Assembly (NCBI GenBank): GCA_023053545.1
Contig: JAKZAN010000001.1
Coordinates: 1,384,565 to 1,448,564 of the forward strand
Reading direction: 5' to 3'
Length of the DNA stretch: 64,000 nucleotides
Origin: Lepidurus packardi
Lineage: Eukaryota; Arthropoda; Branchiopoda; Notostraca; Triopsidae
Shown here: positions 28,946 to 64,000 of the stretch, piece by piece
Numbering within the stretch: position 1 is the stretch's first letter
How the letters are laid out: each line of letters opens with the position of its first letter
Program-made: the position numbers and the translations under genes
Notes under the pieces: model-generated
The model's database searches: none
What the model saw: the letters and a program-made list of their open reading frames with translations, nothing else
Told to the model about the DNA's origin: nothing

Positions 28946-31900
28946 ACGCAGAATGCCAGAATACGGAATTAAAAAAAAACTACCCAACGCAGTGCCCAAT
29001 CACGTTGCTCATTGCTAACGTTGCCATAGCCTCTGGCGAAATGGATACAGCCCTCTGTAGGCACTCGCCGCCACTTTGCTTAGCAGACGGAATTAATCCC
29101 GTCAGCCATTTTGTGAACAGACGCCAAGCCGACTCCACGTCAGGTAATTTGCTCCCGTTTTATTCAAATTTTTCGACTCCCATCCGACTTTTATCAAACT
29201 GAAAGGCAAACTGACTTAAGTGTTATGCAATCAGCTTGCAAATTATCACATTTTCTTAATAAAAAGTAACAATATTGATAATGTTCGACATTATTCCCAG
29301 GGGTAAGCGTCAGTAGATTTCGAACGTTTTCAAATTCATTCGCTCCCACTGGCTACATATTGCCATTAATTCAATTAACAACTACTAGGAAGTTACCATA
29401 TTCTGTCTTCCGTTTCCTCTAGTTGGGCGAAGATTTTGTTTATCCTATTTTTTCACGCAAATGTTCAAAATCCGATTTGAGCAATTTCCAGATTTCTTTT
29501 AATTCCTCAAACCTCATGACTACCAACAAAGATACACCCCGGAGTGTAGTCCCGTTTTTGGATTTAAAAAATATCAATGCAAACAAATTTAGCATTTTTC
29601 CGGCTAAAAAACGTAATATTAAAAATTCCCGCATGGCCGCCATTGTCGGTCCCGGTCAAAGCTCCAGCGAACGTTTTTGTCCCAGCCCTGTTCCGCCATC
29701 TTGATTTGTGTAGTCGGGTGGGATGACGTACTTTTTTCGCGACTCAAATTCAACTTGTCAAAGCGTACAACCGTGTTAAATTGTGTTTAAAGATGAACAG
29801 TATTACTAAGAGTTGTCCCTTTTCTATTTCTTAGGTGGTGACACATTTCACAAACAGTTCTATTGTTACAACGTGTTAAGTGTGTGGTCCCTTCCCTCCT
29901 CCCGTTCCACTCAGCCAACTTTATCCCCCTGCCTTTTGCCATCCTTTTGGAGAAGAAAAACAGAACAGCAACGTTTTTGTCTGCTAAGCTGAGGATGCGT
30001 GGAGACAGCTATTATTTCATCTTCTGTGGGAGCCGCCAGGAGAACCAGAAGAAAAGGTATGCCAGGAGTTCAAAAGTGTTGTGGTCAGTTAGGTCTTTAG
30101 CTGCAACATTTGAACTTCCTGGGGGACAGAAAAGTCTTCGCTGTGCCATACAATAGGTCTTAAATGGCAAAAACAGCGAAAACTTTTCTGGGGTCAGGGG
30201 TCAAACGGATGGTGGAAGCCTCGACTGAAGAACGCGTAGACGCCGCCAGGCAGGGGGAAAGAGTTTCGTCTGTGGACATTTCTGGCTGAGTACATTCTTT
30301 TCTACTGAATTTAAATATTGGTAACATTGTTATTAACTAACTTCCATCTCCTTTACAGGCTTTCACTCCGTTTGGGTCCCTTAGTGCTCCGGCTGGGATT
30401 TTGCCGTGTTTTCAAGATTGTTGCTGTTTTGGGGGGGATCCACGTGTTCGCTCAGTCGAAGTAAGAACTTGTTTGGATTTTTTCCAAAGTGGCTTTCTGG
30501 TTTCTTTCCCTAATCGAAGAGTCCATTTTATGTTTGAACATGTTGGTTAACATGGCCATAGAAGATAGAATGCTTGGAAAGTTTTTAAAATGGCTCAGTT
30601 TTACAGTTTTTGTTCATATTTTATAGTTTTTATTCTTGTTCTTTTTTCCTAGGACGTTCACGAGACCGCGAGAAAAGGGAGGGCGAAGTCTCGGAAGGCT
30701 ATTGGTCGTAGGAAAGCAAAGCAAAAAAAAGGGGAGCAGAACCTGCACCTGGTCGACTTTGGGCAAAATCTCCGCCTTTCCCACACTTGCTATGTCTCCA
30801 GCCGGCGAAAATGGATACATTTGAGTCTTCTGAAAAAGGGAAGCACATTTTGTGTATTATTCTCTGCTTTCGTCTGCGTTCGTCTTTGTTGGGCAATTCA
30901 AACTTTTTTTTTTTTTGAATGTGGTAGTTTGTTGAGTTTGTGCAGAGAAAGCTTCGCTAATGCTAGCCACGCCAAGCTTTTGGGTTTGGAAGAATGAAAC
31001 AGTTCTTGGCCAGAAGTGTTTTATTTCGGTCAAACTTTGCCGCATTGAGTCATTTTTGAGTTAGTTTTCATCCCAGTGAGGGTTTATTTCTTGCCCATTT
31101 CTGAGAACGCGCCCGGAAGAGAACGTATCGTGTTCATTGGAATTCTATTGATGCTTTTCTCGTTTATTTTCGTTTTTCCTTCCGAGTGGACGTGGGACAC
31201 CTTGATAGATTTGATCCTCTGCCATTCTTACATAAAGTTTATGGCCTTTTTGGTGCTAACTTTCCCTAATCGGGTTTGGAAAGATTAGCGCTTTGTGTTG
31301 GACGGTGCGTAATCCCTGTGATCTGGTCCCTTGGTGAACTTTCTTCAATTCCGCGGTGTTTTCAAGACGTTTTCGGTGTTTTCAAGAAGAAGTCGAGGTA
31401 ACCTTTTCGTTTTCCCGTGGAAATTTTTTAAAATGTATTCTTGTTTATCTCACCCCTCTTTGCTCTAGGCTTCCTCTTTTGAGCCCCTAGTGCTCTTTCC
31501 TCGCTGATTAGTAGCGCAGGCATTCCTAAAGAAGATTATCCGTGCATTAATGGCGATTCCTCCAGCTGCAATACCAAAGATCATCGTCATCATCAGCTCT
31601 TCCCTCAACCCTTGCCTTGCCTTTAAGCGCCGCCGTAGCTGATCCCGTTGATGTTCTTCACGTCGCCTTTGATTCGGATTTCGGATTCGCCCTTTCTTGT
31701 GATGGAACTGGAGACCCAGAGGGCATAAGGTATGCTAGGAGGTTTGGCTGCGGTAATTCGCTTAAAGATTTGCTGCCATCCAACTTTCTGGGGGGCAGAA
31801 AGGTTTCCGTTGCTGCATGATTCGTTAGGTCTTTAATGGTAGCAACGGAGCTTCTCTGTTTTTTTGGGGGGGGGCGTGGTTTAGGTAGATTTTGGATACC

Positions 31901-34363
31901 GATGGAAGTCAGGCAGGCCAGGGTTGAGTTCATCTGTGGATTGAAGAAGTGGAGTAAGTTTTTCCCTTATTTTTTGTTTATTGAATATTAATAGTTTTAT
32001 TTGTAATTCAACAAGGCTTCTCAACCGGATTCCCTGCGTTACTACCCGAGATTATCTTCATTTGAAGCCTTTGTGAGGCTAAACTCCGTGTGGCCTCACA
32101 TTTTCAGTGTGTTAAGTCTGAAACGGTTGCAACGGAGCTTCTCTGGGTTTTGGAGGGCGCGATTCGGGTGCATTGTGGGGCCTATGGAGGACCAGCAGGA
32201 AAGGGGCGTTATATTCGGGTGTGGTGATGAAGAGGCGGAGTAAGTTTTGACTTGTTATTTTTTTTATTCTCTATACTAGTGTTGTTGTTTTTATTCAAAT
32301 AGGCTACCCATTGGATCTCCTGCGTTATTACTTAACATCTCAATGACATTGTGCCTTTATGTTGTTAAATGCCGTCCATTAGAAGAAAGCAAAGACATAA
32401 GAAGTGGCTCGATTCTGGCCCTCGACCCACGTCGTAGTAGAATTCGCCAGAAGTTTCGGGTTTGCAAGCCGTTCTCTGATTCGCTACCATGGATTGACGA
32501 ACCCGAACCAAAGCTGCGCAGTACTTTCGTTGCTGTGAAAGCTGTGCTTTCGTATCAACATCAAACCGTGTCCGGATAGGTTCAAGAGAACGAATCCACA
32601 AGTGTGTTGCCTTTGAACGGATGTGCATCCTGAAGAACTCCCAGAACATCAGTTGCTCCCTAGCAAGCAGTTAGTGCAGACTTTCTTTTCTCCAGAGATG
32701 TTGTGAAAGCTAGTAGTGAGTTTATAGTTAAACATTACCAAGCATGTTGTACATTAACAATCCGCTTAAGCGTTATTTTCGAAAACATTACCAATTGGAT
32801 CTTCGAAAACCCTGAAGAACCCGTATAACGTCAGTTGCTCCCTAGCAAGCAGTTAGTGCAGACTTGCTTTTCTCCAGCGATGTTGTGAAAGCTAGTAGTG
32901 AAGCTAATAGTGAGTTTATAGTTGAAACATTACCAAGCATGTTGAACATTAACAATCCGATTAAGCGTTATCGTCGAAAACATTACCAATTGGATCTTCG
33001 AAAATCTGGAGACAATTCAAGTGTCAAGTGTGGTGTTTGGCAAAAGGCTGGCCAGGCCTATGCCAGTAAAACAAAATGTGTTGGTGTTAAGTGTGCTCTC
33101 ATCCCTCCCATTCATCCCTCCTGTCTACTTCATCCCTGCCTTACATCATCCTTCGCAGTCGACACAATTTACAACTTTAATCTGCTAAGCTGATACTTCT
33201 GCTACTTGGAGGTAGCTACTTACCTTCTGTGGGAACTAGGAGAACCAGAAGGAACAGGTATGCCAGGAGTTAAAGTGTTGTTGGCCGATTAGGTCTTTTG
33301 CCGCAACTTTTAATTTCCTGGGCGGCGAAAAGTCTTGGTTGTTGCCATTCATTAGGTCTTTAATGGTAACAACGAAGCTTTTCTATGTTAACGCGTGGTC
33401 AACGGATTTGGGGAGCCTCTATTGAAGAACGCAGCCCTGGCAGGGATGGCAGTTTCGCCCATTTGCCTGATCTTCGGGATTCCTTCATGCCCCTTCTTCA
33501 AATCCCCGTGTTTCCAAGAGTGAAAAGTGCCGCGATAAACCGTTCTTCGGGTTGGTCCCTTGGTGAGCTTTCTTCACATTCAGCGGTGTTCCCAAGATTG
33601 CCTGCTAAGCCAAAGTCAACTTTTGCAAGTCGGAGTGTTCGCGAGGTCGAGGTAAAAGATAATCTTTGTCGTTCCCATGTCATTTAGATTTTGATTCGTT
33701 TGTAAACATTTGGAACTTACTTTTTTCTACTTTACGTTTCGTTGCAGGATCTTTGGTAACGTTAATCGACTAAAGTGGGTGGAAGGTGGCAAAAGGGGGA
33801 GGACAACTGGGTGTTACGACGTTCATACGATGTCCTGAACCGGAAATGCAGAAGTGAAGTCGACTTGACGAACGTCTCAAACGTGTGCAACTTGTGTTGT
33901 TGTTTTTTATTTGTCCATCGAAAGTCTACAAACACAAAACTCGGCAAGTTTTCTACTTCTCCAAAGTCCTTCTCCTTTTCACATATTTTATGCAACTTGT
34001 GTTGTTGTTTTTTATGTGTTACCGGAAGTCTACAAACGCGAATCAGGACAAGTTTGATCCTTTTCATACGTTTTGCATTTTCACGCGTTTCGGGAGCCTT
34101 CCTCTGCGGATGTGTTTGTTCACACGTATTTGTAAGTTTTAGACATTTTGTTTATGAATTGATTTCATGCGTACTGATATTTTTCTCTTCTTCTAGTTTT
34201 CGGTGTCGAAATGAAGGGGAAGAGGAAGTAATCCTGTGCCAAGAGGTCAACATCTAACGAATCCGATTTCAGTTTAAAGGTCATGGGGAGCTTCGGAGTG
34301 ATTGTTGTAACACGTTAATTTACATTTATAAGTTTTTACTACTCATTGTTTCTTTCAGGCGAG
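28946..34363 (+). repeat. Alpha block: intron-bearing, non-coding modular repeat (left copy)
   Basis: From 29708 to 34257 this block is mirrored at 64000-59451 with a constant coordinate sum (93708), so there are no net indels. It is made of recurring cassettes. One ends TTTTCAAGA-variable-GTCGAGGTAA (near 30400, 31360, 33580). Another contains GTAGCAACGGAGCTTCTCTG (31840; variants at 32120, 33360, 30160). A third contains GGAGAACCAGA...ATGCCAGGAGTT (30040, 33240). Splice-like junctions flank the cassettes, for example GTAAG at 34132 to TTCTAG at 34191-34196. All frames have stops, so no protein is called. It shares a diverged order of segments with the beta block. Confidence 0.7.
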
Positions 34364-36172
34364 CATCGCTGAGGTCTTCACTATGGCGGTGGCTAACCAT
34401 AGACAGCAGTGGCGGTCTTTGGCGGGCAATTCCTATTGAAAACATCGTTGGAGGTTTTCATTAGGGCGGTGGCTAACTTAAGACAGCAGTGGCGGTCTTT
34501 GGCGGGCAATTCCTATTGAAAACATCGTTGGAGGTTTTCATTAGGGCGGTGGCTAACCATAGACAGTTGTGGCGGTCTTTGGCGGGCAATTCCTTTTGAA
34601 AACATCGTTGGAGGTTTTCAATAGGGCGGTGGCTAACTTAAGACAGCAGTGGCGGTCTTTGGCGGGCAATTCCTATTGAAAACATCGTTGGAGGTTTTCA
34701 TTAGGGCGGTGGCTAACCATAGACAGTTGTGGCGGTCTTTGGCGGGCAATTCCTTTTGAAAACATCGTTGGAGGTTTTCATTAGGGCGGTGGCTAACTTA
34801 AGACAGCAGTGGCGGTCTTTGGCGGGCAATTCCTATTGAAAACATCGTTGGAGGTTTTCATTAGGGCGGTGGCTAACCATAGACAGTTGTGGCGGTCTTT
34901 GGCGGGCAATTCCTTTTGAAAACATCGTTGGAGGTTTTCATTAGGGCGGTGGCTAACTTAAGACAGCAGTGGCGGTCTTTGGCGGGCAATTCCTATTGAA
35001 AACATCGTTGGAGGTTTTCATTAGGGCGGTGGCTAACCATAGACAGTTGTGGCGGTCTTTGGCGGGCAATTCCTTTTGAAAACATCGTTGGAGGTTTTCA
35101 TTAGGGCGGTGGCTAACTTAAGACAGCAGTGGCGGTCTTTGGCGGGCAATTCCTATTGAAAACATCGTTGGAGGTTTTCATTAGGGCGGTGGCTAACCAT
35201 AGACAGTTGTGGCGGTCTTTGGCGGGCAATTCCTATTGAAAACATCGTTGGAGGTTTTCATTAGGGCGGTGGCTAACTTAAGACAGCAGTGGCGGTCTTT
35301 GGCGGGCAATTCCTATTGAAAACATCGTTGGAGGTTTTCATTAGGGCGGTGGCTAACCATAGACAGTTGTGGCGGTCTTTGGCGGGCAATTCCTTTTGAA
35401 AACATCGTTGGAGGTTTTCAATAGGGCGGTGGCTAACTTAAGACAGCAGTGGCGGTCTTTGGCGGGCAATTCCTATTGAAAACATCGTTGGAGGTTTTCA
35501 TTAGGGCGGTGGCTAACCATAGACAGTTGTGGCGGTCTTTGGCGGGCAATTCCTTTTGAAAACATCGTTGGAGGTTTTCATTAGGGCGGTGGCTAACTTA
35601 AGACAGCAGTGGCGGTCTTTGGCGGGCAATTCCTTTTGAAAACATCGTTGGAGGTTTTCATTAGGGCGGTGGCTAACTTAAGACAGCAGTGGCGGTCTTT
35701 GGCGGGCAATTCCTTTTGAAAACATCGTTGGAGGTTTTCATTAGGGCGGTGGCTAACTTAAGACAGTTGTGGCGGTCTTTGGCGGGCAATTCCTTGTGAA
35801 AACATCGTTGGAGGTTTTCATTAGGGCGGTGGCTAACCTTTGACAGTTGTGGCGGTCTTTGGCGGGCAATTCCTTTTGAAAACATCGTTGGAGGTTTTCA
35901 TTAGGGCGGTGGCTAACTTAAGACAGCAGTGGCGGTCTTTGGCGGGCAATTCCTTTTGAAAACATCGTTGGAGGTTTTCATTAGGGCGGTGGCTAACCAT
36001 GGACAGTTGTGGCGGTCTTTGGCGGGCAATTCCTTGTGAAAACATCGTTGGAGGTTTTCATTAGGGCGGTGGCTAACCTTTGACAGCAGTGGCGGTCTTT
36101 GGCGGGCCGTTCGAACGTTAATTATGGCGGTGGCTGACCTTAGACAGCAGTGGCGGTCTTTGGCGGGCAATT
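34364..36172 (+). repeat. 80-bp satellite array 1
   Basis: About 22 head-to-tail units of 80 bp, core GGCGGTCTTTGGCGGGCAAT. Through about 35,590 two unit types alternate strictly: one with CTTAAGACAGCAG, one with CCATAGACAGTTG. This gives a 160-bp higher-order repeat; past 35,600 the order breaks down. Because 80 is not a multiple of three, minus-strand frames run 70 residues through three units; these are not genes. The array joins the alpha block through CATCGCTGAGGTCTTCAC and the beta block through AATTCACGGAATCC. Confidence 0.92.
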
Positions 36173-39100
36173 CACGGAATCCAAGGGCGCAAGACTCAAA
36201 ATCACGGAATTCAAGAACGTAATGCAAATTTAAGAAAAAAATGCTATTCTTTTAATGTTTTGTGTAATTTTTTGTAGATTACGCGGCCTTCGGTTTGGGA
36301 GAACTACTCTGTATTTTGAAGCCTGTGATAGGTAGTTCGCAGGATTCGTAATCCCTTTCGAGAGAGGCGCTGGAAGTCCTGCGATATCAGTGGTGTCCAG
36401 TGTTGTGCCTACAAAGCCTGGAACCCTGTCTGGAGGGATTGGCTGAGTATCAACATCAACGGGGTGAGGGACGCCAGCGTTGCTCGCTGACTGATGGCCA
36501 GGGATGCGAATCTTCTGCAGAGGTTTAGTTCTTTGCCAGGACCGGAAGGAAAGCGAAATGTAAGTTTTCTTTTGAATGCGTTTTACAATTTGATTAATTG
36601 GTCTTATCTTTATCTTATTATAGTTCAAGTGAAAATGAAGAAATAATCTCAAGTGATCCATCGCGGTATTGCCATGATGCGAATTTGTCCGCAGCGTGTC
36701 AGAGCACCGCAGATCCTCCATCGTCTAGCTTCCAAGGAAGGTGAATTAATTTCACATATACATAAGGATGCAATAATGGTGAATTACAACGGAAGAACGA
36801 CAAACAGTAGATGACACAATTTTTGTTAGGCAGAAGACCTGATCAAGCAGGAAATTATTGTGATTCTCAATTTGAAATCAACGTCCAGGATCGGATCAAT
36901 TTGATCGTCATTTTCGTAATTTAATTTGGTCCCTTACAAGATTATGGACTCGTCGGCTTTATGTCAGAATCCGGCGGCCTTCTTTGTTCAATTCCGCGGT
37001 GTTTTCAAGACGAAGTCGAGGTAATTTTTCGTTTTCCGCAAATTCTCAAACTTTTATTTTGAGGAAATTTTCCTTCTCATTTGAGTCTCTGTAGGCATTC
37101 TTTTTAAGGAGCGCTAAAAGGAAAAATGCTGAATTCATGGTTTCAATTTATCTCAACAGGAAAGCTTTTGGAAAGGTTCAGAAAACCATTTGGATGCGAA
37201 ATAAAACACCCACTTTCGAGAAGCCGAGGATACTTGTGAGCCGCGGTTACCAGATTCGTCTTTGGTGTTCATTACGCAAAGTAAATTTTTGATTTGAATG
37301 AACGCGATCTTTTGTATTAATATCTGCCTTGTCATTGTCTAATAGGCTTGAGATAGAGCTCCGTTTGGCTACTATTCCGTATTGGGAAATACCGCGAACA
37401 GGCCCGTTCAGTATTCATGGTCGTCTGGGTTTTGGTGGGCGTGGTTGTGGGGCCGGTGGAGGACCAGCAGGCAAGGGACGGTATTGCGTGTGTGGTGTTG
37501 AAGAGGGCGGAGTAAGTTTTGATTTCTTATTTTTTTTGAATTCTCTCTACTAATGTTGTTGCTTTTATTCCAATAGGCTATCCATTTATCCATTATTACT
37601 TAACAACATCTCCATGACATTGTGCCTTTATTGTGTCGTTCAATTCCGTCCATTAGAAGAAAGCGAAGAGTCTTGTGAGCTGTAGTTATCAAATCCCCCA
37701 GTTTCGTCCTTGGCGTTCACAACTGGAGTTGTGCGATGCTTTCCCTCCTCCGATTTGTTAATTTTTTGGTAAGTGATTTTTGTATTTGTATTTTCCTTCA
37801 TTTTTATGCGTATTATCCTTCATTTTAGAATGTCAGAATATGGAGTTTAAACACACTCACCCAGCGCAGTGCCCAATCAGGATGCTCGTAATGTTGCCAT
37901 GGTTTCTGGCGAATGGGTACAGCCCTCTGTCGGCGCTTGTCGGTGCTTGTCGATGACGACGGAATTAATCTCGTCTGCGAACAAAACTAGAACCTTCTAC
38001 ACGTCAGGTATTTTGCTCCCGTTTTATTTCAAGTTTATCGACTCCCATCCGACTTGTATCAAAGTGAAAGCATCCAACACTTGTATAGTATGCAAGCAGC
38101 ATGCATATTCTCACAGTTTGCTCATTAAAAGTAGCAATATTCAGCATTTTCGACATAATTCCCGAGGCTTAGCGTCAGTAGGTTTCGAACAATTTTTCGA
38201 ACGTTTTCAAGTGTCTTCGCTCCCCGTTGGCTACATATTGCCATTAGTGTCAAGCTCCCGCAGTGCCTTCCATTTCCTCTAGTCAGACAACGATTCGTTC
38301 TTTCCATTTTTCGCGAAATCCGATTTTCTTTTTAGCAATTTTCCAGTGGCTTTTTTGATGTGTCAAGTCGGGTGGGGTGACTGTTTTAGTGACTCAACTT
38401 AAACTGGACAAAGCTTACAAAGTTGTGCTTAAACCTTACAAAGTTTACCCTTACAAAGTTGTGCCTAAACCTGAACGGTATTTACTAAGAGTTCCTTTTC
38501 TATTTATTAGACGGTGCCACATTTCACAGTGCGTGATAGTATGACAACGTGTTAAGCGTGTGGTGCTCATCCATTCCCTCTTCCTGTTCTGCTAAGCTGA
38601 GGCTGTGGGGAGACAGCTATTGTTTCAAGTGCTGTGTGAGACGCCAGGAGAACCAGATATGCCCGGAGTTGAAGAGTGTGGTGGAATCCGGCTGCGATTT
38701 TGCCGTGTTTTCAAGATTGTTGCTGTTTTGGGGGAGGATCCACGTGTTCGCTCAGTCGGGTAAGAACTTATGGGAATTTTTTGTGTGGCTTTCTGGTTTC
38801 TTTCCCCAATCGAAGAGTCCATTTTATGTTTGCAAGCTGCGCTATCTACAAGCTGCGCTAAACACTACAAGCTGCAATAAACCCTACAAACTGCGACATC
38901 TAGTATCAACTAGTAGAGACTCACTGAACACCCCAAGACACGAACGAGCCAGCAGAAGTGTGTTTTTCTCCTAATACTTTTGACATAATACTGATGCTTG
39001 TCTCTTTTGTTCTAGAATTCTCGGAGTGAAAACGAAGGGAAGGCTTTCAACTGGATTCACTGCGTGACTACCCAAGATTAGAGCCATTTGAAGCCTTTCT

Positions 39101-41071
39101 GACGCTGAACTCCGCCCACTTTTGAAGAAGACGAGGAAACTTGTGAGCCGCAGTTACCAGATTCGTCTTTGATGTTCGTTACGCAAGGTCCATTTTTTAG
39201 TTTTAATGAACTCGATCTTTTTGTATTAATATCTGCTTTTGTCATTGTCCAATAGGCTTGAGGTAGAGCTCCGTTGTGCTAATATTTCGCATTGGGAAAT
39301 ACCACGAGTGTGTTAAGTCTTCAACGGTAGCAACGGACCTTCTCTGGGTTTTGGAGGGCGTGGTTCGGGTGCATTGTGGGGCCTGTGGAGGACCAGCAGG
39401 AAAGGGGATGTGGTGATGAAGAGGCGGAGTAAGTTTTGACTTGTTATTATTTTTTTTATTCTCTATACTAGTGTTGTTGTTTTTATTCAAATAGGCTATC
39501 CATTGGAACTCCTGCGTTATTACTTAACAACATCTCAATGACATTATGAATTTATGTTGTTAAATGCCGTCCATTAGAAGAAAGCGAAGACATAAGAAGT
39601 GGCTCGGTTCTGGCCCTCGAATCTTCCTCTGCGGATGTGTTTGTTCACACTTATTTGTAAGTTTTAAACATTTTCTTTATGAATTTGTACCGATATTTTT
39701 CTCTTTTCTTCTAGTTTTCGGTGGCAAAATGAAGGGGAAGAGGAAGTAATCCTGTGCCAAGAGGTCAGCATCTCCTAACGAATCAGATTTCGGTTTGGTT
39801 TGGCAAGCCGTTCTCTGATTCGCTACCATGGATGGACGAACCCGAACCGAAGCTGCGTAGCACTGCATGTGTTTTTCGTATAAACACCAAACCGTGTCCG
39901 GATAGTTTCAAGAGTTTGTTGCCTTTGAACGGATGTCCACCCTGAAGAACCCTATAACGTCAGTTGCTCCCTAGCAAGCAGTCAGTGCTCACCTGCTTCT
40001 CTCCAGCGATGTTGTGAAAGCTAGTAGTGAGTTTATAGTTAAACATTCCCAAGCATGTTGAACATTAACAATCGGATTAAGCGTTATCTTCGAAAACATT
40101 ACCAATTGGATCTTCGAAAACCTGGAGTCAATTCAAGTGCGCGTTTAAAGTGTTACGTGTGGTGTTTGGCAAAAGGCTTGTCAGGCCTATGCCAGTACAA
40201 AAATGTGTGCTCTCTACTTCATCCCTGCATTACACCGGAAATGCAAAAGTGAGGACGAATGTCTCAAACGTGTGTTGTTGTTTTCTACTTGTGTGTCTGG
40301 AGTCTACAAACACAAAATTCGGCAAGTTTTCTCCTCCTCCAAAGTCCTCCTCCTTTTCATACGTTTTCTGTTTTCACTCGTTTTGGGAGCCTTCCTCTGC
40401 GGATGTGTTCACACTTATTTGTAAGTTTTAAACATTTTGTTAATGAATTGATTTCATGCGTGCTAATATTTTTCTATTTTCTTCTAGTTTTCGGTGGCAA
40501 AATGAAGGGGAAGAGGAAGTAATCCTGTGCCAAGAGGTCAGCATCTCCTAACGAATCAGATTTCAGTGTAAACGTCATGGGGACCTTCGGAGTGATGGTA
40601 GTAACGCTTTAAATTTACATTTGTAAGTTTTTACTACTCGTTGTTTCTTTCAGGCTAGCAAATAGAAGGCTATTTGGATTGAAGTCGAATATGGATGACA
40701 AGATTTCGAAGCGGGTAGCAAAAAGCCGATTTACATGCAGTTTGTATTGTTGAGATTTCTTTTAAATTTTAATTTTCTTCCCTTTTCCCCAAGTCACGCT
40801 TTAGATTCGCCGCTTCTTCATTAGCCGTTCTCCTAGTACTTCAGGATTTAAGTTGAGTTTCAACTGACTTGACTTTTAATTTATTTTCTTAATTTTAAGT
40901 TTTATTTATTTGTTTGTTTTGTTTATTTGTTCGCCTTATTTGTTGTACCAAAAAGTTCCCCGTAAAATCTAGTTTCCAAAAATGTCCTTTTTGTATTATT
41001 TGCCACATTTTGCAATAAAAATTAAAATTTTAAATATTTTTGCGTGAATTTTCAAAAAATCCGCTAAAAAA

Positions 41072-41134
41072 GGGGGCGTGGTTTCCGAAATGGACGAATC
41101 CTATTGGTGGATTGGACCAAAAAGGGGGCGTGGC
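41072..41134 (+). promoter_or_regulatory. CCAAT/GC-box cluster in the palindrome arm
   Basis: Two GGGGGCGTGG boxes (41072-41081 and 41124-41133) flank two inverted CCAAT boxes (ATTGG at 41103-41107 and 41111-41115). These are binding motifs for KLF/Sp and NF-Y type factors. The mirrored copy lies at about 43041-43103. Related copies occur at about 52228-52290 (first GC box shortened) and 52881-52945. Promoter function is inferred only. Confidence 0.35.
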
Positions 41135-41407
41135 TCCTTTTCGAGATTTCGAAGCGTTTTCTGGGCTATTTTCCATAAGGATCCCTGCACGATCAAGGGG
41201 GTCCCCTTGAAAAATCGTCAAAAATTGAAGCCTCGCCCCTTTCCCTGTACCCCAACTCCCCTGCTCGGTTTCCTATCCACGATATTCGAGCTCGTAATGC
41301 CGAAGCATCACAATTTCGAATATGCGATTAGGAACCTTGCCGGGAATTTGGTCTATGGTACAGGGAAAGGGAGCCAATTAATATTTCGTTTATTCGACGA
41401 AATAAAG

Positions 41408-41478
41408 TGCCACGACCGGGAATCGAACCGAGGACCTTTGGGTCCCCAGTCATGCGTGGTATCCACGCGGTCATGGGC
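41408..41478 (-). ncRNA. tRNA-like, B-box-bearing sequence (SINE-head-like), left copy
   Basis: Reading the minus strand: GCCCATGACCGCGTGG (A-box-like), two perfect hairpins (GCGTGG-ATA-CCACGC and GGACC-CAAA-GGTCC), GGTTCGATTCC (B-box consensus), and TCGTGGCA as the 3' end, which can pair with the 5' end if one base bulges. The D and anticodon arms are not canonical, so it is a tRNA-derived or tRNA-mimicking sequence, not a tRNA gene. Confidence 0.45.
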
Positions 41479-41620: not shown

Positions 41621-41639
41621 AGTACGTGTAGTAGGTATA

Positions 41640-51100: not shown

Positions 51101-52449
51101 ATGTTCGTTACGCAAGGTCCATTTTTTAGTTTTAATGAACTCGATCTTTTTGTATTAATATCTGCTTTTGTCATTGTCCAATAGGCTTGAGGTAGAGCTC
51201 CGTTGTGCTAATATTTCGCATTGGGAAATACCACGAGTGTGTTAAGTCTTCAACGGTAGCAACGGACCTTCTCTGGGTTTTGGAGGGCGTGGTTCGGGTG
51301 CATTGTGGGGCCTGTGGAGGACCAGCAGGAAAGGGGATGTGGTGATGAAGAGGCGGAGTAAGTTTTGACTTGTTATTATTTTTTTTATTCTCTATACTAG
51401 TGTTGTTGTTTGTATTCAAATAGGCTATCCATTGGAACTCCTGCGTTATTACTTAACAACATCTCAATGACATTATGAATTTATGTTGTTAAATGCCGTC
51501 CATTAGAAGAAAGCGAAGACATAAGAAGTGGCTCGGTTCTGGCCCTCGAATCTTCCTCTGCGGATGTGTTTGTTCACACTTATTTGTAAGTTTTAAACAT
51601 TTTCTTTATGAATTTGTACCGATATTTTTCTCTTTTCTTCTAGTTTTCGGTGCCAAAATGAAGGGAAGAGGAAGTAGTCCTGTGCCAAGAGGTCAGCATC
51701 TCCTAACGAATCAGATTTCAGTGTAAACGTCATGGGGACCTTCGGAGTGATGGTAGTAACGCTTTAAATTGACATTTATAGGTTTTTACTACTCATTGTT
51801 TCTTTCAGGCTAGCAAATAGAAGGCTATTTGGATTGAAGTCGAATATGGATGACAAGATTTCGAAGCGGGTAGCAAAAAGCCGATTTACATGCAGTTTGT
51901 ATTGTTGAGATTTCTTTTACATTTTAATTTTCTTCACTTTTCCCCAAGTCACGCTTTAGATTCGCCGCTTTTTCATTCGCCGTTCTCCTAGTACTTCAGG
52001 ATTTCAGTTGACTGAGTTTCAACTGACTTGACTTTTAATTTATTTTCTTAATTTTAAGTTTTATTTATTTGTTTGTTTTGTTTATTTGTTCGTCTTATTT
52101 GTTGTACCAAAAAGTTCCCCGTAAAATCTAGTTTCAAAAAATGTCCTTTTTGTATTATTTGCCAATTTTTCAATAAAAATTAAAATTTTAAATATTTTTG
52201 CGTGATTTTTCAAAAAATCCGCTAAAAAATGGGCGTGGTTTCCGAAATGGACGAATCCTATTGGTGGATTGGACCAAAAAGGGGGCGTGGCTCCTTTTCG
52301 AGATTTCGAAGCGTTTTCTGGGCTATTTTCCATAAGGATCCCTGCACGATCAAGGGGGTCCCCTTGAAAAATCGTCAAAAATTGAAGCCTCGCCCCTTTC
52401 CCTGTACCCAACTCCCCTGCTCGGTTTCCTATGCACGATATTCGAGCTC
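48169..52449 (+). repeat. Beta block, left arm of palindrome 2
   Basis: Second version of the beta block. Its mirror at 57825-53500 has coordinate sum 105991 with no net indel from 48217 to about 51720. It differs from palindrome 1 by substitutions and small indels (for example an 11-12 bp duplication near 49440 and an insertion near 49805-49840) that its own mirror arm shares. Relative to the right arm, about 820 bp containing one duplicated module is missing at about 51720. Confidence 0.85.
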
Positions 52450-52727
52450 ATACATACATACATACATACATACACACATACATACATACACCTTGGTTCC
52501 TATGTTGCTTATATACCTGCCTCAACGCCTATTATATATAAGCCCATGACCGCGTGGATACCACGCATGACTGGGGACCCAAAGGTCCCCGGTTCGATTC
52601 CCGGTCGTGGCACTTTATTTCGTCGAATAAACGAAATATTAATTGGCTCCCTTTCCCTGTACCATATACCAAATTCCCGGCAAGGTTCCTATTCGCATAT
52701 TCGAAATTGTGATGCTTCGGCATTACG
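52450..52727. other. Asymmetric centre of palindrome 2
   Basis: The left arm stops at CGATATTCGAGCTC and joins a short (ATAC)n tract (52450-52490). It then continues with sequence equal to the right side of palindrome 1 (from CTTGGTTCCTATG). The central 81-bp repeats and the left tRNA-like copy are absent. This is what an internal deletion from about 41312 to about 42600 of a palindrome-1-like sequence would give. Confidence 0.8.
52542..52612 (+). ncRNA. tRNA-like, B-box-bearing sequence, palindrome 2
   Basis: Same element as in palindrome 1, with one change next to the B-box (GGTCCCCGG instead of GGTCCTCGG) that improves pairing in the T-arm-like hairpin. Single copy in this palindrome. Confidence 0.45.
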
Positions 52728-55700
52728 AGCTCGAATATCGTGGATAGGAAACCGAGCAGGGGAGTTGGGGTACAGGGAAAGGGGCGAGGCTTCAATTTTT
52801 GACGATTTTTCAAGGGGACCCCCTTGATCGTGCAGGGATCCTTATGGAAAATAGCCCAGAAAACGCTTCGAAATCTCGAAAAGGAGCCACGCCCCCTTTT
52901 TGGTCCAATCCACCAATAGGATTCGTCCATTTCGGAAACCACGCCCCCTTTTTTAGCGGATTTTTTTAAAATTCACGCAAAAATATTAAAAATTTTAATT
53001 TTTATTGCAAAATTGGCAAATAATACAAAAAGGACATTTTTGGAAACTAGATTTTACGGGGAACTTTTTGGTACAACAAATAAGGCGAACAAATAAACAA
53101 AACAAACAAATAAATAAAACTTAAAATTAAGAAAATAAATTAAAAGTCAGGTCAGTTGAAACTCAACTGAAATCCTGAAGTACTAGGAGAACGGCGAATG
53201 AAGAAGCGGCGAATCTAAAGCGTGACTTGGGGAAAAGGGAAGAAAATTAAAATGTAAAAGAAATCTCAACAATACAAACTGCATGTAAATCGGCTTTTTG
53301 CTACCCGCTTCGAAATCTTGTCATCCATATTCGACTTCAATCCAAATAGTCGATCCAAATAGCCTTCTATTTGCTAGCCTGAAAGAAACAACGAGTAGTA
53401 AAAACTTACAAATGTAAATTTAAAGCGTTACTACCATCACTCCGAAGGTCCCCATGACGTTTACACTGAAATCTGATTCGTTAGGAGATGCTGACCTCTT
53501 GGCACAGGATTACTTCCTCTTCCCCTTCATTTTGCCACCGAAAACTAGAAGAAAAGAGAAAAATATTAGCACGCATGAAATCAATTCATTAACAAAATGT
53601 TTAAAACTTACAAATAAGTGTGAATACATCCGCAGAGGAAGGCTCCCAAAACGAGTGAAAACAGAAAACGTATGAAAAGGAGGAGGACTATGGAGGAGGA
53701 GAAAACTTGCCGAATTTTGTGTTTGTAGACTCCCGACACACAAGTAAAAAACAACAACACACGTTTGAGACATTCGTCCTCACTTTTGCATTTCCGGTGT
53801 AATGCAGGGATGAAGTAGAGAGCACACATAGAGATGAAGTAGAGAACACATATTTTCGTACTGGCATAGGCCTGACAAGCCTTTTGCCAAACACCACACG
53901 TAACACTTTAAACGCGCACTTGAATTGACTTGAATTGAATTGTTTTCGAAGATCCAATTGGTAATGTTTTCGAAGATAACGCTTAATCCGATTGTTAATG
54001 TTCAACATGCTTGGGAATGTTTAACTATAAACTCACTACTAGCTTTCACAACATCGCTGGAGAGAAGCAGGTGAGCACTGACTGCTTGCTAGGGAGCAAC
54101 TGACGTTATAGGGTTCTTCAGGGTGGACATCCGTTCAAAGGCAACAAACTCTTGAAACTATCCGGACACGGTTTGGTGTTTATACGAAAACACATGCAGT
54201 GCTACGCAGCTTCGGTTCGGGTTCGTCCATCCATGGTAGCGAATCAGAGAACGGCTTGCCAAACCAAACCGAAATCTGATTCGTTAGGAGATGCTGACCT
54301 CTTGGCACAGGATTACTTCCTCTTCCCCTTCATTTTGCCACCGAAAACTAGAAGAAAAGAGAAAAATATCGGTACAAATTCATAAAGAAAATGTTTAAAA
54401 CTTACAAATAAGTGTGAACAAACACATCCGCAGAGGAAGATTCGAGGGCCAGAACCGAGCCACTTCTTATGTCTTCGCTTTCTTCTAATGGACGGCATTT
54501 AACAACATAAATTCATAATGTCATTGAGATGTTGTTAAGTAATAACGCAGGAGTTCCAATGGATAGCCTATTTGAATACAAACAACAACACTAGTATAGA
54601 GAATAAAAAAAATAATAACAAGTCAAAACTTACTCCGCCTCTTCATCACCACATCCCCTTTCCTGCTGGTCCTCCACAGGCCCCACAATGCACCCGAACC
54701 ACGCCCTCCAAAACCCAGAGAAGGTCCGTTGCTACCGTTGAAGACTTAACACACTCGTGGTATTTCCCAATGCGAAATATTAGCACAACGGAGCTCTACC
54801 TCAAGCCTATTGGACAATGACAAAAGCAGATATTAATACAAAAAGATCGAGTTCATTAAAACTAAAAAATGGACCTTGCGTAACGAACATCAAAGACGAA
54901 TCTGGTAACTGCGGCTCACAAGTTTCCTCGTCTTCTTCAAAAGTGGGCGGAGTTCAGCGTCAGAAAGGCTTCAAATGGCTCTAATCTTGGGTAGTCACGC
55001 AGTGAATCCAGTTGAAAGCCTTCCCTTCGTTTTCACTCCGAGAATTCTAGAACAAAAGAGACAAGCATCAGTATTATGTCAAAAGTATTAGGAGAAAAAC
55101 ACACTTCTGCTGGCTCGTTCGTGCCTTGGGGTGATCAGTGAGTCTCTACTAGTTGATACTAGATCGCGCAGTTTGTAGGGTTTAGTGCAGCTTGCAAACA
55201 TATAATGGACTCTACGATTGGGGAAAGAAACCAGAAAGCCACTTTGGAAAAAATTCAAACAAGTTCTTACCTCGACTGAGCGAACACGTGGATCCCCTCG
55301 AAAACAGCAACAATCTTGAAAACACGGCAAAATCGCAGCCGGATTCCACCAGCACAGCACATGAAATAATAGCTCCCCACAGCCTCAGCTTAGCAGAACA
55401 GGAAGAGGGAATGGATGAGCACCACACGCTTAACACGTTGTCATACTATCACTCACTGTGAAATGTGGCACCGTCTAATAAATAGAAAAGGAACTCTTAG
55501 TAAATACCGTTCAGGTTTAAGCACAACTTTGTAAGGGTAAACTTTGTAAGGTTTAAGCACAACTTTGTAAGCTTTGTCCAGTTTAAGTTGAGTCACTAAA
55601 ACAGTCACCCCACCAGACTTGACACATCAAAAAAGCCACTGGAAAATTGCTAAAAAGAAAATCGGATTTCGTGAAAAATAGAAAGAACGAATCGTTGTCT

Positions 55701-57825
55701 GACTAGAGGAAATGGAAGGCACTGCGGGAACTTGACACTAATGGCAATATAATAGCCAACGGGGAGCGAAGAAACTAATGTCGAATTATGTCGAAAATGC
55801 TCAATATTGCTACTTTTAATGAGCAAACTGTGAGAATATGCATGCTGCTTGCATACTATACAAGTGTTGGATGCTTTCACTTTGATACAAGTCGGATGGG
55901 AGTCGATAAACTTGAAATAAAACGGGAGCAAAATACCTGACGTGTAGAAGGTTCTAGTTTTGTTCGCAGACGAGATTAATTCCGTCGTCATCGACAAGCA
56001 CCGACAAGCGCCGACAGAGGGCTGTACCCATTCGCCAGAAACCATGGCAACATTACGAGCATCCTGATTGGGCACTGCGCTGGGTGAGTGTGTTTAAACT
56101 CCATATTCTGGCATTCTAAAATGAAGGATAATACGCATAAAAATGAAGGAAAATACAAATAATTTGAAGGAAAATAAAAATAAAAATGAAGGAAAATACA
56201 AATACAAAAATCACTTACCAAAAAATTAACAAATCGGAGGAGGGAAAGCATCGCACAACTCCAGTTGCGAACGCCAAAGACGAAACTGGGGGATTTGATA
56301 ACTGCAGCTCACAAGACTCTTCGCTTTCTTCTTATTGACACGGAACTGAACGACACAATAAAGGCACAATGTCATGGAGATGTTGTTAAGTAATAATGGA
56401 TAAATGGATAGCCTATTGGAATAAAAGCAACAACATTAGTAGAGAGAATTCAAAAAAAAATAAGAAATCAAAACTTACTCCGCCCTCTTCAACACCACAC
56501 ACGCAATACCGTCCCTTGCCTGCTGGTCCTCCACCGGCCCTCCTCCACCGGCCCCACAACCACGCCCACCAAAACCCAGACGACCATGAAGACTGAACGG
56601 GCCTGTTCGCGGTATTTCCCAATACGGAATAGTAGCCAAACGGAGCTCTATCTCAAGCCTATTAGACAATGACAAGGCAGATATTAATACAAAAGATCGA
56701 GTCCATTCAAATCAAAAATGTACTTTGCGTAATGAACACCAAAGACGAATCTGGTAACCGCGGCTCACAAGTATCCTCGGCTTCTCGAAAGTGGGTGTTT
56801 TATTTCGCATCCAAATGGTTTTCTGAACCTTTCCAAAAGCTTTCCTGTTGGCATAAATTGAAACCATGAATTCAGCATTTTTCCTTTTAGCGCTCCTTAA
56901 AAAGAATGCCTACAGAGACTCAAATGAGAAGGAAAATTTCCTCAAAATAAAAGTTTGAGAATTTGGGGAAAACGAAAAATTACCTCGACTTCGTCTTGAA
57001 AACACCGCGGAATTGAACAAAGAAGGCCGCCGGATTCTGACATAAAGCCGACGAGTCCATAATCTTGTAAGGGACCAAATTAAATTACGAAAATGACGAT
57101 CAAATTGATCCGATCCTGGACGTTGATTTCAAATTGAGAATCACAATAATTTCCTGCTTGATCAGGTCTTCTGCCTAACAAAAATTGTGTCATCTACTGT
57201 TTGTCGTTCTTCCGTTGTAATTCACCATTATTGCATCCTTATGTATATGTGAAATTAATTCACCTTCCTTGGAAGCTAGACGATGGAGGATCTGCGGTGC
57301 TCTGACACGCTGCGGACAAATTCGCATCATGGCAATACCGCGATGGACCACTTGAGATTATTTCTTCATTTTCACTTGAACTATAATAAGATAAAAATAA
57401 GACCAATTAATCAAATTGTAAAACGCATTCAAAAGAAAACTTACATTTCGCTTTCCTTCCGGTCCTGGCAAAGAACTAAACCTCTGCAGAAGATTCGCAT
57501 CCCTGGCCATCAGTCAGCGAGCAACGCTGGCGTCCCTCACCCCGTTGATGTTGATACTCAGCCAATCCCTCCAGACAGCGTTCCAGGCTTTGTAGGCACA
57601 ACACTGGACACCACTGATATCGCAGGACTTCCAGCGCCTCTCTCGAAAGGGATTACGAATCCTGCGAACTACCTATCACAGGCTTCAAAATACAGAGTAG
57701 TTCTCCCAAGCCGACAGCCGCGTAATCTACAAAAAATTACACAAAACATTAAAAGAATAGCATTTTTTTCTTAAATTTGCATTACGTTCTTGAATTCCAA
57801 GATTTTGAGTCTTGCGTCCTTGGAT
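52728..57825 (-). repeat. Beta block, right arm of palindrome 2 (inverted)
   Basis: Inverted beta block containing the complete set of modules, including the piece lost from the left arm. It carries the intact 163-codon frame on + (57283-57774). Confidence 0.88.
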
Positions 57826-59349
57826 TCCGTGAATTGCCCGCCAAAGACCGCCACTGCTGTCTAAGGTTAGCCACCGCCATAATTAACGTTCGAACTGCCC
57901 GCCAAAGACCGCCACTGCTGTCTAAGGTTAGCCACTATCACAATGAAAACCTCCAACGATGTTTTCAATATGAATTGCCCGCCAAAGACCGCCACTCCTG
58001 TCCAAGGTTAGCCACCACACAATGAAAACCACCCAACGATATCTTCATCATGAAATTAACGTTCGAACTGCCCGCCAAAGACCGCCACAACTGTCTATGG
58101 TTAGCCACCGCCCTATGAAAACCTCCAACGATGTTTTCACAAGGAATTGCCCGCCAAAGACCGCCACTGCTGTCTTAAGTTAGCCACCGCCCTAATGAAA
58201 ACCTCCAACGATGTTTTCACAAGGAATTGCCCGCCAAAGACCGCCACTGCTGTCTTAAGTTAGCCACCGCCCTAATGAAAACCTCCAACGATGTTTTCAC
58301 AAGGAATTGCCCGCCAAAGACCGCCACTGCTGTCTATGGTTAGCCACCATCACAATGAGAACCTCCAACGATGTTTTCATCATGAATTGCCCGCCAAAGA
58401 CCGCCACAGCTGTCCTAGGTTAGCCACCGCCCTAATGAAAACCTCCAACGATGTTTTCAATAGGAATTGCCCGCCAAAGACCGCCACAACTGTCTATGGT
58501 TAGCCACCGCCCTAATGAAAACCTCCAACGATGTTTTCAAAAGGAATTGCCCGCCAAAGACCGCCACTGCTGTCTATGATTAGCCACCGCCCTAATGAAA
58601 ACCTCCAACGATGTTTTCAATAGGAATTGCCCGCCAAAGACCGCCACAACTGTCTATGGTTAGCCACCGCCCTAATGAAAACCTCCAACGATGTTTTCAA
58701 AAGGAATTGCCCGCCAAAGACCGCCACAACTGTCTATGGTTAGCCACCGCCCTAATGAAAACCTCCAACGATGTTTTCAATATGAATTGCCCGCCAAAGA
58801 CCGCCACTCCTGTCCAAGGTTAGCCACCACACAATGAAAACCACCCAACGATATCTTCATCATGAAATTAACGTTCGAACTGCCCGCCAAAGACCGCCAC
58901 AACTGTCTATGGTTAGCCACCGCCCTATGAAAACCTCCAACGATGTTTTCAAAAGGAATTGCCCGCCAAAGACCGCCACTGCTGTCTATGGTTAGCCACC
59001 GCCCTAATGAAAACCTCCAACGATGTTTTCACAAGGAATTGCCCGCCAAAGACCGCCACTGCTGTCTATGGTTAGCCACCATCACAATGAGAACCTCCAA
59101 CGATGTTTTCATCATGAATTGCCCGCCAAAGACCGCCACAGCTGTCCTAGGTTAGCCACCGCCCTAATGAAAACCTCCAACGATGTTTTCAATAGGAATT
59201 GCCCGCCAAAGACCGCCACAACTGTCTATGGTTAGCCACCGCCCTAATGAAAACCTCCAACGATGTTTCCAAAAGGAATTGCCCGCCAAAGACCGCCACT
59301 GCTGTCTATGGTTAGCCACCGCCATAGTGAAGACCTCAGCGATGCTCGA
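57826..59349 (-). repeat. 80-bp satellite array 3 (inverted)
   Basis: About 19 inverted units. A longer sequence of units is itself duplicated: the series with ATCACAATGAGAACC, CATCATGAATTGCCC and CTGTCCTAGG at about 58330-58440 recurs at about 59070-59170, and the unit with ATATCTTCATCATGAAATTA recurs at 58040 and 58850. The alternating 160-bp dimer of array 1 is not regular here. Confidence 0.9.
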
Positions 59350-62300
59350 CTGAAAGAAACAATGAGTAGTAAAAACTTATAAATGTAAATTAACGTGTTA
59401 CAACAATCACTCCGAAGCTCCCCATGACCTTTAAACTGAAATCGGATTCGTTAGATGTTGACCTCTTGGCACAGGATTACTTCCTCTTCCCCTTCATTTC
59501 GACACCGAAAACTAGAAGAAGAGAAAAATATCAGTACGCATGAAATCAATTCATAAACAAAATGTCTAAAACTTTCAAATACGTGTGAACAAACACATCC
59601 GCAGAGGAAGGCTCCCGAAACGAGTGAAAATGCAAAACGTATGAAAAGGATCAAACTTGTCCTGATTCGCGTTTGTAGATTTCCGGTAACACATAAAAAA
59701 CAACAACACACGTTGCATAAAATATGTGAAAAGGAGAAGGACTTTGGAGAAGTAGAAAACTTGCCGAGTTTTGTGTTTGTAGACTTTCGATGGACAAATA
59801 AAAAACAACAACACAAGTTGCACACGTTTGAGACGTTCGTCAAGTCGACTTCACTTCTGCATTTCCGGTTCAGGACATCGTATGAACGTCGTAACACCCA
59901 GTTGTCCTCCCCCTTTTGCCACCTTCCACCCACTTTAGTCGATTAACGTTACCAAAGATCCTGCAACGAAACGTAAAGTAGAAAAAAGTAAGTTCCAAAT
60001 GTTTACAAACGAATCAAAATCTAAATGACATGGGAACGACAAAGATTATCTTTTACCTCGACCTCGCGAACACTCCGACTTGCAAAAGTTGACTTTGGCT
60101 TAGCAGGCAATCTTGGGAACACCGCTGAATGTGAAGAAAGCTCACCAAGGGACCAACCCGAAGAACGGTTTATCGCGGCACTTTTCACTCTTGGAAACAC
60201 GGGGATTTGAAGAAGGGGCATGAAGGAATCCCGAAGATCAGGCAAATGGGCGAAACTGCCATCCCTGCCAGGGCTGCGTTCTTCAATAGAGGCTCCCCAA
60301 ATCCGTTGACCACGCGTTAACATAGAAAAGCTTCGTTGTTACCATTAAAGACCTAATGAATGGCAACAACCAAGACTTTTCGCCGCCCAGGAAATTAAAA
60401 GTTGCGGCAAAAGACCTAATCGGCCAACAACACTTTAACTCCTGGCATACCTGTTCCTTCTGGTTCTCCTAGTTCCCACAGAAGGTAAGTAGCTACCTCC
60501 AAGTAGCAGAAGTATCAGCTTAGCAGATTAAAGTTGTAAATTGTGTCGACTGCGAAGGATGATGTAAGGCAGGGATGAAGTAGACAGGAGGGATGAATGG
60601 GAGGGATGAGAGCACACTTAACACCAACACATTTTGTTTTACTGGCATAGGCCTGGCCAGCCTTTTGCCAAACACCACACTTGACACTTGAATTGTCTCC
60701 AGATTTTCGAAGATCCAATTGGTAATGTTTTCGACGATAACGCTTAATCGGATTGTTAATGTTCAACATGCTTGGTAATGTTTCAACTATAAACTCACTA
60801 TTAGCTTCACTACTAGCTTTCACAACATCGCTGGAGAAAAGCAAGTCTGCACTAACTGCTTGCTAGGGAGCAACTGACGTTATACGGGTTCTTCAGGGTT
60901 TTCGAAGATCCAATTGGTAATGTTTTCGAAAATAACGCTTAAGCGGATTGTTAATGTACAACATGCTTGGTAATGTTTAACTATAAACTCACTACTAGCT
61001 TTCACAACATCTCTGGAGAAAAGAAAGTCTGCACTAACTGCTTGCTAGGGAGCAACTGATGTTCTGGGAGTTCTTCAGGATGCACATCCGTTCAAAGGCA
61101 ACACACTTGTGGATTCGTTCTCTTGAACCTATCCGGACACGGTTTGATGTTGATACGAAAGCACAGCTTTCACAGCAACGAAAGTACTGCGCAGCTTTGG
61201 TTCGGGTTCGTCAATCCATGGTAGCGAATCAGAGAACGGCTTGCAAACCCGAAACTTCTGGCGAATTCTACTACGACGTGGGTCGAGGGCCAGAATCGAG
61301 CCACTTCTTATGTCTTTGCTTTCTTCTAATGGACGGCATTTAACAACATAAAGGCACAATGTCATTGAGATGTTAAGTAATAACGCAGGAGATCCAATGG
61401 GTAGCCTATTTGAATAAAAACAACAACACTAGTATAGAGAATAAAAAAAATAACAAGTCAAAACTTACTCCGCCTCTTCATCACCACACCCGAATATAAC
61501 GCCCCTTTCCTGCTGGTCCTCCATAGGCCCCACAATGCACCCGAATCGCGCCCTCCAAAACCCAGAGAAGCTCCGTTGCAACCGTTTCAGACTTAACACA
61601 CTGAAAATGTGAGGCCACACGGAGTTTAGCCTCACAAAGGCTTCAAATGAAGATAATCTCGGGTAGTAACGCAGGGAATCCGGTTGAGAAGCCTTGTTGA
61701 ATTACAAATAAAACTATTAATATTCAATAAACAAAAAATAAGGGAAAAACTTACTCCACTTCTTCAATCCACAGATGAACTCAACCCTGGCCTGCCTGAC
61801 TTCCATCGGTATCCAAAATCTACCTAAACCACGCCCCCCCCCAAAAAAACAGAGAAGCTCCGTTGCTACCATTAAAGACCTAACGAATCATGCAGCAACG
61901 GAAACCTTTCTGCCCCCCAGAAAGTTGGATGGCAGCAAATCTTTAAGCGAATTACCGCAGCCAAACCTCCTAGCATACCTTATGCCCTCTGGGTCTCCAG
62001 TTCCATCACAAGAAAGGGCGAATCCGAAATCCGAATCAAAGGCGACGTGAAGAACATCAACGGGATCAGCTACGGCGGCGCTTAAAGGCAAGGCAAGGGT
62101 TGAGGGAAGAGCTGATGATGACGATGATCTTTGGTATTGCAGCTGGAGGAATCGCCATTAATGCACGGATAATCTTCTTTAGGAATGCCTGCGCTACTAA
62201 TCAGCGAGGAAAGAGCACTAGGGGCTCAAAAGAGGAAGCCTAGAGCAAAGAGGGGTGAGATAAACAAGAATACATTTTAAAAAATTTCCACGGGAAAACG

Positions 62301-64000
62301 AAAAGGTTACCTCGACTTCTTCTTGAAAACACCGAAAACGTCTTGAAAACACCGCGGAATTGAAGAAAGTTCACCAAGGGACCAGATCACAGGGATTACG
62401 CACCGTCCAACACAAAGCGCTAATCTTTCCAAACCCGATTAGGGAAAGTTAGCACCAAAAAGGCCATAAACTTTATGTAAGAATGGCAGAGGATCAAATC
62501 TATCAAGGTGTCCCACGTCCACTCGGAAGGAAAAACGAAAATAAACGAGAAAAGCATCAATAGAATTCCAATGAACACGATACGTTCTCTTCCGGGCGCG
62601 TTCTCAGAAATGGGCAAGAAATAAACCCTCACTGGGATGAAAACTAACTCAAAAATGACTCAATGCGGCAAAGTTTGACCGAAATAAAACACTTCTGGCC
62701 AAGAACTGTTTCATTCTTCCAAACCCAAAAGCTTGGCGTGGCTAGCATTAGCGAAGCTTTCTCTGCACAAACTCAACAAACTACCACATTCAAAAAAAAA
62801 AAAAGTTTGAATTGCCCAACAAAGACGAACGCAGACGAAAGCAGAGAATAATACACAAAATGTGCTTCCCTTTTTCAGAAGACTCAAATGTATCCATTTT
62901 CGCCGGCTGGAGACATAGCAAGTGTGGGAAAGGCGGAGATTTTGCCCAAAGTCGACCAGGTGCAGGTTCTGCTCCCCTTTTTTTTGCTTTGCTTTCCTAC
63001 GACCAATAGCCTTCCGAGACTTCGCCCTCCCTTTTCTCGCGGTCTCGTGAACGTCCTAGGAAAAAAGAACAAGAATAAAAACTATAAAATATGAACAAAA
63101 ACTGTAAAACTGAGCCATTTTAAAAACTTTCCAAGCATTCTATCTTCTATGGCCATGTTAACCAACATGTTCAAACATAAAATGGACTCTTCGATTAGGG
63201 AAAGAAACCAGAAAGCCACTTTGGAAAAAATCCAAACAAGTTCTTACTTCGACTGAGCGAACACGTGGATCCCCCCCAAAACAGCAACAATCTTGAAAAC
63301 ACGGCAAAATCCCAGCCGGAGCACTAAGGGACCCAAACGGAGTGAAAGCCTGTAAAGGAGATGGAAGTTAGTTAATAACAATGTTACCAATATTTAAATT
63401 CAGTAGAAAAGAATGTACTCAGCCAGAAATGTCCACAGACGAAACTCTTTCCCCCTGCCTGGCGGCGTCTACGCGTTCTTCAGTCGAGGCTTCCACCATC
63501 CGTTTGACCCCTGACCCCAGAAAAGTTTTCGCTGTTTTTGCCATTTAAGACCTATTGTATGGCACAGCGAAGACTTTTCTGTCCCCCAGGAAGTTCAAAT
63601 GTTGCAGCTAAAGACCTAACTGACCACAACACTTTTGAACTCCTGGCATACCTTTTCTTCTGGTTCTCCTGGCGGCTCCCACAGAAGATGAAATAATAGC
63701 TGTCTCCACGCATCCTCAGCTTAGCAGACAAAAACGTTGCTGTTCTGTTTTTCTTCTCCAAAAGGATGGCAAAAGGCAGGGGGATAAAGTTGGCTGAGTG
63801 GAACGGGAGGAGGGAAGGGACCACACACTTAACACGTTGTAACAATAGAACTGTTTGTGAAATGTGTCACCACCTAAGAAATAGAAAAGGGACAACTCTT
63901 AGTAATACTGTTCATCTTTAAACACAACTTAACACGGTTGTACGCTTTGACAAGTTGAATTTGAGTCGCGAAAAAAGTACGTCATCCCACCCGACTACAC
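59350..64000 (-). repeat. Alpha block, right copy (inverted, runs off the window)
   Basis: Reverse complement of 29708-34363. Differences are few and concentrated next to the satellite array (for example around 59570-59720). The window ends inside this copy, so its outer boundary is unknown. Confidence 0.9.

Follow-up and report, generated by a model that had tools for sequence, protein, structure and literature searches.

A Probable Giant Foldback Element With IS3EU/GingerRoot-Type Ends at a Gap-Centred Palindrome of Lepidurus packardi

Sequence Organization of the Locus

The organization of a palindromic locus was evaluated in a window of 64,000 nt (C1:1384565–1448564), by which the whole stretch of DNA analysed is meant; coordinates below are window positions unless C1 is given. 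Host gene exons encoding a PDZ domain (538–1251) and a SMAD MH2 domain (23979–24515) were identified, and a TTI2 exon region was recognized from a Tti2 match (E = 0.0012) below the curated cut-off. Two arrays of a ~270-bp unit, ~93–95% alike, lie at 7089–8996 and 22661–23580, and an array of a 183-bp unit lies at 12224–13689. ARAGORN and Rfam (gathering thresholds) returned nothing across the window.

A sequence-only reading of the window had described a 34-kb mirror-symmetric region pivoting on an assembly gap. The symmetry was real and far beyond chance. Positions 29708–34257 aligned without gaps to the reverse complement of 59451–64000 with 5 mismatches in 4550 (paired positions sum to 93708), and 29781–33996 showed no mismatch to its counterpart at the same sum. 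With the arrays counted in, the BLAST match of 29708–35872 to 64000–57831 was inverted and 97.4% identical. A further 30 kb was fetched on either side of the window to follow the mirror outward, and the close inverted match then covered 28142–35872 and 65566–57831, with a fainter match (79%) reaching 28018 and 65722. The start given earlier, 29708, was therefore too far inward, and the other end lies beyond the window. The outermost 1.5 kb of the mirror was far more diverged than the rest, its first three 500-bp steps having 50, 8 and 7 mismatches.

The left side begins with a dispersed repeat (27294–27844) found by genome search, which is unrelated to the mirrored sequence and adjoins its left end. 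This repeat had at least 39 matches elsewhere in the genome (~450–545 bp, 74–82%; the best 40 of 187 candidates were scored), most of which begin near 27294. It is followed by a remnant of the left outer end (27845–28141, + strand), which aligns with positions 986–1242 of the outer end of a copy on C2; it lacks the outermost ~985 bp and, with them, the TATGGC terminus. Segment alpha of the left arm (28142–34257, +) matched 65566–59451 in inverted orientation with 70 mismatches in 6109, mostly in the outer 1.5 kb. The left array (34364–36107, +) contains 21.8 units of 80 bp, or 10.9 of 160 bp. The beta arm of the left contig (36174–42024, +; start approximate, taken from the array end), the palindrome centre (42025–42132, within an inverted array at ~41667–42480) and the inverted beta' arm (42133–47639, −) complete the left contig. 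Its palindrome pairs 36555–42024 with 47639–42133 (10 mismatches in 5459). Since 47639 is the mirror position of 36555, and 36107 is the last position of the left array, the contig breaks off ~450 bp short of the expected array.

The pivot is, as had been read, a scaffold gap of 100 N (47640–47739), and the order to its left (alpha, 80/160-bp array, beta, inverted beta') does return reversed to its right. The right contig runs from an array remnant (47740–48110) into a beta arm (both within 47740–52452, +), which is ~600 bp shorter than the opposite arm owing to a deletion, and continues with the inverted beta' arm (52724–57830, −), an array of 17.9 units of 80 bp (57892–59344, −) and inverted alpha' (59451–64000, −), which runs past the window to 65566. 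Outer-end remnants of the same family extend on the right to ~66132. The right-contig palindrome pairs 47740–51722 with 58251–54268 (3 mismatches in 3983), and BLAST of right against left contig matched 52449–55194 to 42608–45326 at 98%. A Pfam search of two open reading frames of 163–164 aa within the mirrored sequence recognized nothing, and no transposase was found in them.

Flanking Sequence Beyond the Mirror

The mirror inside the window had been taken to suggest that the whole region might be a haplotig placed in reverse, in which case the sequence beyond 64000 should continue as the reverse complement of the left flank through TTI2. It does not. The mirror halts at 65566 (weakly at 65722), BLAST at E ≤ 1e-5 with dust on found nothing in common between 20000–27844 and 66133–94000, and the TTI2 region had no match in the right flank (BLAST, 66133–94000). 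Moreover, each flank query matched the genome over its full length only once, so the flanks have no second haplotype copy in it. A gap-free palindrome of the same kind also exists at another site. The reversed-haplotig reading was rejected and retains only a negligible probability, and the mirrored stretch is not a second copy of the genome around it. False duplication thus fails for the region as a whole, whose flanks are unmatched, and is likely for the element centre only (~10 kb), both contigs carrying the whole centre.

A Gapless Palindrome of the Same Plan

A 1-kb alpha query had at least 46 matches in the genome (the best 40 of 219 candidates were scored). Five other C1 loci were fetched whole and named by their kb position (r525, r615, r784, r961 and r1132). 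The last, r1132 (C1:1136976–1164385), has no gap; its 27,410 bp make up one palindrome, arranged as alpha, array, beta, beta', array, alpha. Its main arm matches were 97.8% and 99.5% identical. Two long inverted arms, each with 80-bp arrays, take up nearly all of its length, which is the foldback (long-TIR) design. The left contig of the window covers positions 1–18922 of r1132 and the right contig covers ~8600–27410. The two contigs therefore overlap over its centre, and together they draw this centre twice.

An additional partial copy of a beta segment occurs in r961. Between its short inverted ends, L044 (2.35 kb) has a beta-like segment and a single 80-bp unit, and it plausibly represents a compact version related to the giant form. 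The 21.7-kb copy on C5 is a diverged foldback of the family with a nested Gypsy-type element; the 1355-codon open reading frame of the latter, named by its appearance, lies at L045–L046 (C5:8252921–8256985).

Number of Centres at the Window Locus

The number of centres was explored with a 903-base marker beside the palindrome axis, for which 47 matches were listed and the best 40 of 365 candidates were scored. At least 18 of the listed matches were near full length and formed nine plus/minus pairs, i.e., nine centres, all within C1:307851–1438205 (1.13 Mb). Among the matches listed, seven other C1 loci had one centre each, whereas the window locus had two, flanking the gap.

It would be very unlikely for the contigs to end at the palindrome centre with second halves that are false mirrors from chimeric fold-back reads. 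The near-perfect arms within each contig (10/5459 and 3/3983 mismatches) would fit such an artefact, but palindromes of the same kind occur in gapless copies with unrelated flanks. The right centre, in addition, has the 600-bp arm asymmetry and 24 mismatches in 890 between arms near the axis; near the axis, the left centre is symmetric (0/903), as is r1132 (0/929) and, nearly, r784 (2/914). The gapless loci r525, r961 and r615 each have the junction of the right-centre deletion contiguous in one arm as well, and hence the right centre appears natural. The fold-back artefact was set aside on account of this asymmetry common to gapless loci, and both window centres seem to be natural.

The relationship between the two centres was then compared in four segments. 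In one, they differed at 10 of 423 positions, while the left centre differed from r1132 at 3 of 427 and the right centre from r961 at 3 of 424. In a second, they were 8/902 apart, whereas one of them was 6/899 from another locus; in a segment near the array, 5 mismatches separated them, as against 3 and 1 to other loci. Only in the fourth were they closest to each other (6/755, vs. 12/753 or more). The description of the right contig as an allele-like copy of the left is thus a loose fit: in three segments another locus was nearer to the left or right centre, a pattern that plain alleles would not predict.

These distances, typical of copies from different loci in three of four segments, and the difference in type between the centres would suit a real double element (alpha-A-beta-beta'-[A'-A]-beta-beta'-A'-alpha') on one chromosome, as would the outer alpha arms, which are identical inside (0/3241) like the arms of one element. 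Such an element would arise by recombination between adjacent palindromic copies. Both the structure and this origin are considered unlikely: the seven other C1 loci among the matches listed are all single-centred, the sole double one has a scaffold gap between its centres, and each contig stops in an array or at most ~450 bp from one. Scaffolding probably set end to end two versions of one element's centre that belong to different haplotypes or copies. Of the exceptional structure proposed earlier, the giant palindrome is real, and it is probably single rather than quadruple.

Termini, Target Site Duplications and Transposase

Positions 28142 and 65566 were rejected as the true ends of the element, because homology among copies extends outward to TATGGC. 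A TATGGCATTC-like motif was outermost at 7 of the 24 ends searched, and 21 of the 48 matches of a 556-base end query started exactly at it. TATGGC...GCCATA bounds both L043 and L044, giving these relatives the TA..TA ends of IS3EU/GingerRoot. The C5 copy has GCCATA at its right end and TTTGGC at its left end, and both termini of the window copy are lost.

Four elements with both termini (L043, the C5 copy, L044 and r615) were available for target site duplications (TSDs). Exact 6-bp duplications were found in two, CTGCAA in L043 and TAGCAC in the C5 copy, and L044 had a near one (5/6 bases). The older, diverged C5 foldback did therefore insert with target duplication. No duplication was present at the ends of r615, the only C1 palindrome examined that has both termini; its flanks carry inverted, not direct, copies of ~27 bp, which recur at the right end of the 0.42-Mb locus. 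The lack of a TSD and the inverted flanks suggest that recombination, instead of plain transposition, may have spread or remodelled the C1 palindromes. A search for direct repeats of at least 8 bases, blind to a 6-bp duplication, yielded no convincing case around the apparent ends of six C1 copies. Three element ends at two loci (L018, L019 and L050) have 27–33 bp beyond the terminus in common, which means that the copied unit there takes in flank.

A possible source of transposase was found in L043 (C1; 8.0 kb; L043:318–8326), which has perfect TIRs of 256 nt. Its transposase matched the rva_4 integrase core at 1.6e-81, with matches to rve (6.5e-6) and HTH_21 (0.002) below the curated cut-offs; against the PDB, the open reading frame gave nothing at E ≤ 1. 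A HECT-like ubiquitin-ligase fragment is also present in L043, its HECT match being below the curated cut-off. The similarity of L043 to the family is confined to its outermost ~390 bp (78–83%), and no common stretch above 60 bases was found between it and the arm 27500–42079. Since only the ends are common, L043 is regarded not as the parent but as a candidate helper from within the superfamily. To judge from sequence, its rve-type transposase and related ends fit IS3EU/GingerRoot.

Nature of the Element and Comparison With Known Systems

The palindrome at this locus has definite limits, its plan recurs without a gap at another site, dispersed relatives have TA..TA ends and 6-bp TSDs, and a DDE transposase is encoded by an element whose ends are related. 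The palindrome sits between TTI2 and unrelated sequence and, among the matches listed, belongs to a cluster of about eight on C1. The best explanation, in which we place fairly good confidence, is a giant non-autonomous foldback element of IS3EU/GingerRoot type, ~27–28 kb long and almost all palindrome, whose centre the assembly shows twice. The family may have been mobilized through its ends by transposase supplied from elsewhere, and the element may have grown by taking inner sequence into the inverted ends and by expansion of the arrays. The contigs would have broken at the arrays, each with the complete centre of its own haplotype or copy, and would have been put end to end during scaffolding, which would account for the quadruple appearance. 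The alarming reading of 34 kb of false or quadruple duplication thereby gives way to a defined object. Giant foldback elements can cause scaffold gaps at which ~10 kb is counted twice.

Among the designs found in the literature consulted, the closest is that of the longest D. willistoni Galileo copy, which has 9,021 bp, two TIRs of 4.2–4.7 kb and no transposase; TIRs are described there as growing when tandem repeats expand and when inner sequence is recruited (PMC4168063). Like the window element, Galileo consists of just two very long TIRs with tandem repeats within and no transposase (PMC4168063). Galileo, however, belongs to the P superfamily with TSDs of 7–8 bp, whereas the window element is ~27 kb, three times larger, and has the ends of another superfamily, IS3EU-type, with 6-bp TSDs in its relatives. 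Complete IS3EU families are reported "always" to have TA..TA termini, with TSDs usually of 6 bp, and GingerRoot is similar (PMC10045372). The family resembles both in these ends and TSDs, and in the DDE core of rve type that L043 encodes downstream of a weak IS3-like HTH match, but differs in its giant foldback build with arms of ~13.7 kb. A non-exhaustive literature search for foldbacks of IS3EU type gave one paper, an oyster satellite study. The IS3EU share of the assembly is given as 0.00% for D. magna and 0.05% for D. pulex (PMC8594854). What is new here is probably the giant form of a known foldback design with IS3EU-type ends, together with a probable local assembly duplication.

Arm Identity and Gene Conversion

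Arm interiors were compared at six C1 loci, the set comprising the window and the five fetched loci and leaving out those near 0.31 and 0.42 Mb. At four of the six, the interiors were identical or nearly so, and the outer 1–1.5 kb differed. Arm-to-arm mismatches were 4 over 5 kb in r1132, 0 over 4.5 kb in r784 and 0 over 3.5 kb in r961, while r615 arms differed by 2.3–3.7% and r525 matches were 91–93%. Loci differ from one another by ~1% or more. For inner alpha, the window arms showed 0/3241 and the r1132 arms 3/3252 mismatches, against 32–35/3231 between window and r1132.

Two origins of this identity were weighed. The assembler may have collapsed the arms to one graph edge and written it twice, so that conversion need not be recent; zero mismatches over kilobases next to arrays that differ between arms could point to such a collapse, since the arrays were not homogenized although the segments on either side are identical. 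Isolated mismatches nevertheless persist in the near-identical parts (3 and 1 in r1132, 2 in r784), and large palindromes elsewhere show gene conversion. Collapse is a substantial but somewhat less favoured possibility, and arm-to-arm gene conversion is preferred with modest confidence. Pairing of the arms would then allow conversion to keep their interiors identical while the ends drift. The willow W chromosome is reported to carry large palindromes with signs of gene conversion, and mammalian sex chromosomes are named alongside it (PMC7023750). Those of the willow W resemble the present ones in large size, arm similarity and conversion signs (PMC7023750), but the palindromes here are transposon copies without recognized genes. 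Gene conversion in palindromes is usually a sex-chromosome topic, and if the arm identity is biological, it could be studied here on replicated transposon copies of common ancestry.

Exchange between loci was also considered. The r784 and r961 copies were identical over 914 bases, yet differed at 32 of 757 positions in another segment; that r784 segment differed from the extra copy in r961 at 18 of 758. With sites taken as independent, Fisher tests of the contrast gave 7e-12 and, for the extra copy, 6e-7. Identity in one segment beside divergence in another suggests exchange of sequence between C1 loci. It is a tentative and rather doubtful extension that the foldback transposon forms self-homogenizing giant palindromes, similar to those of sex chromosomes, in which interlocus exchange and arm-to-arm conversion act on about eight loci in 1.1 Mb while the ends age independently. 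The region of the C1 palindrome cluster may have reduced crossing-over. TTAGG repeats, which point to an arthropod, occur at the extreme end of C3. Partial relatives of the centre, among the matches listed, are spread over C2, C3, C5 and C16.
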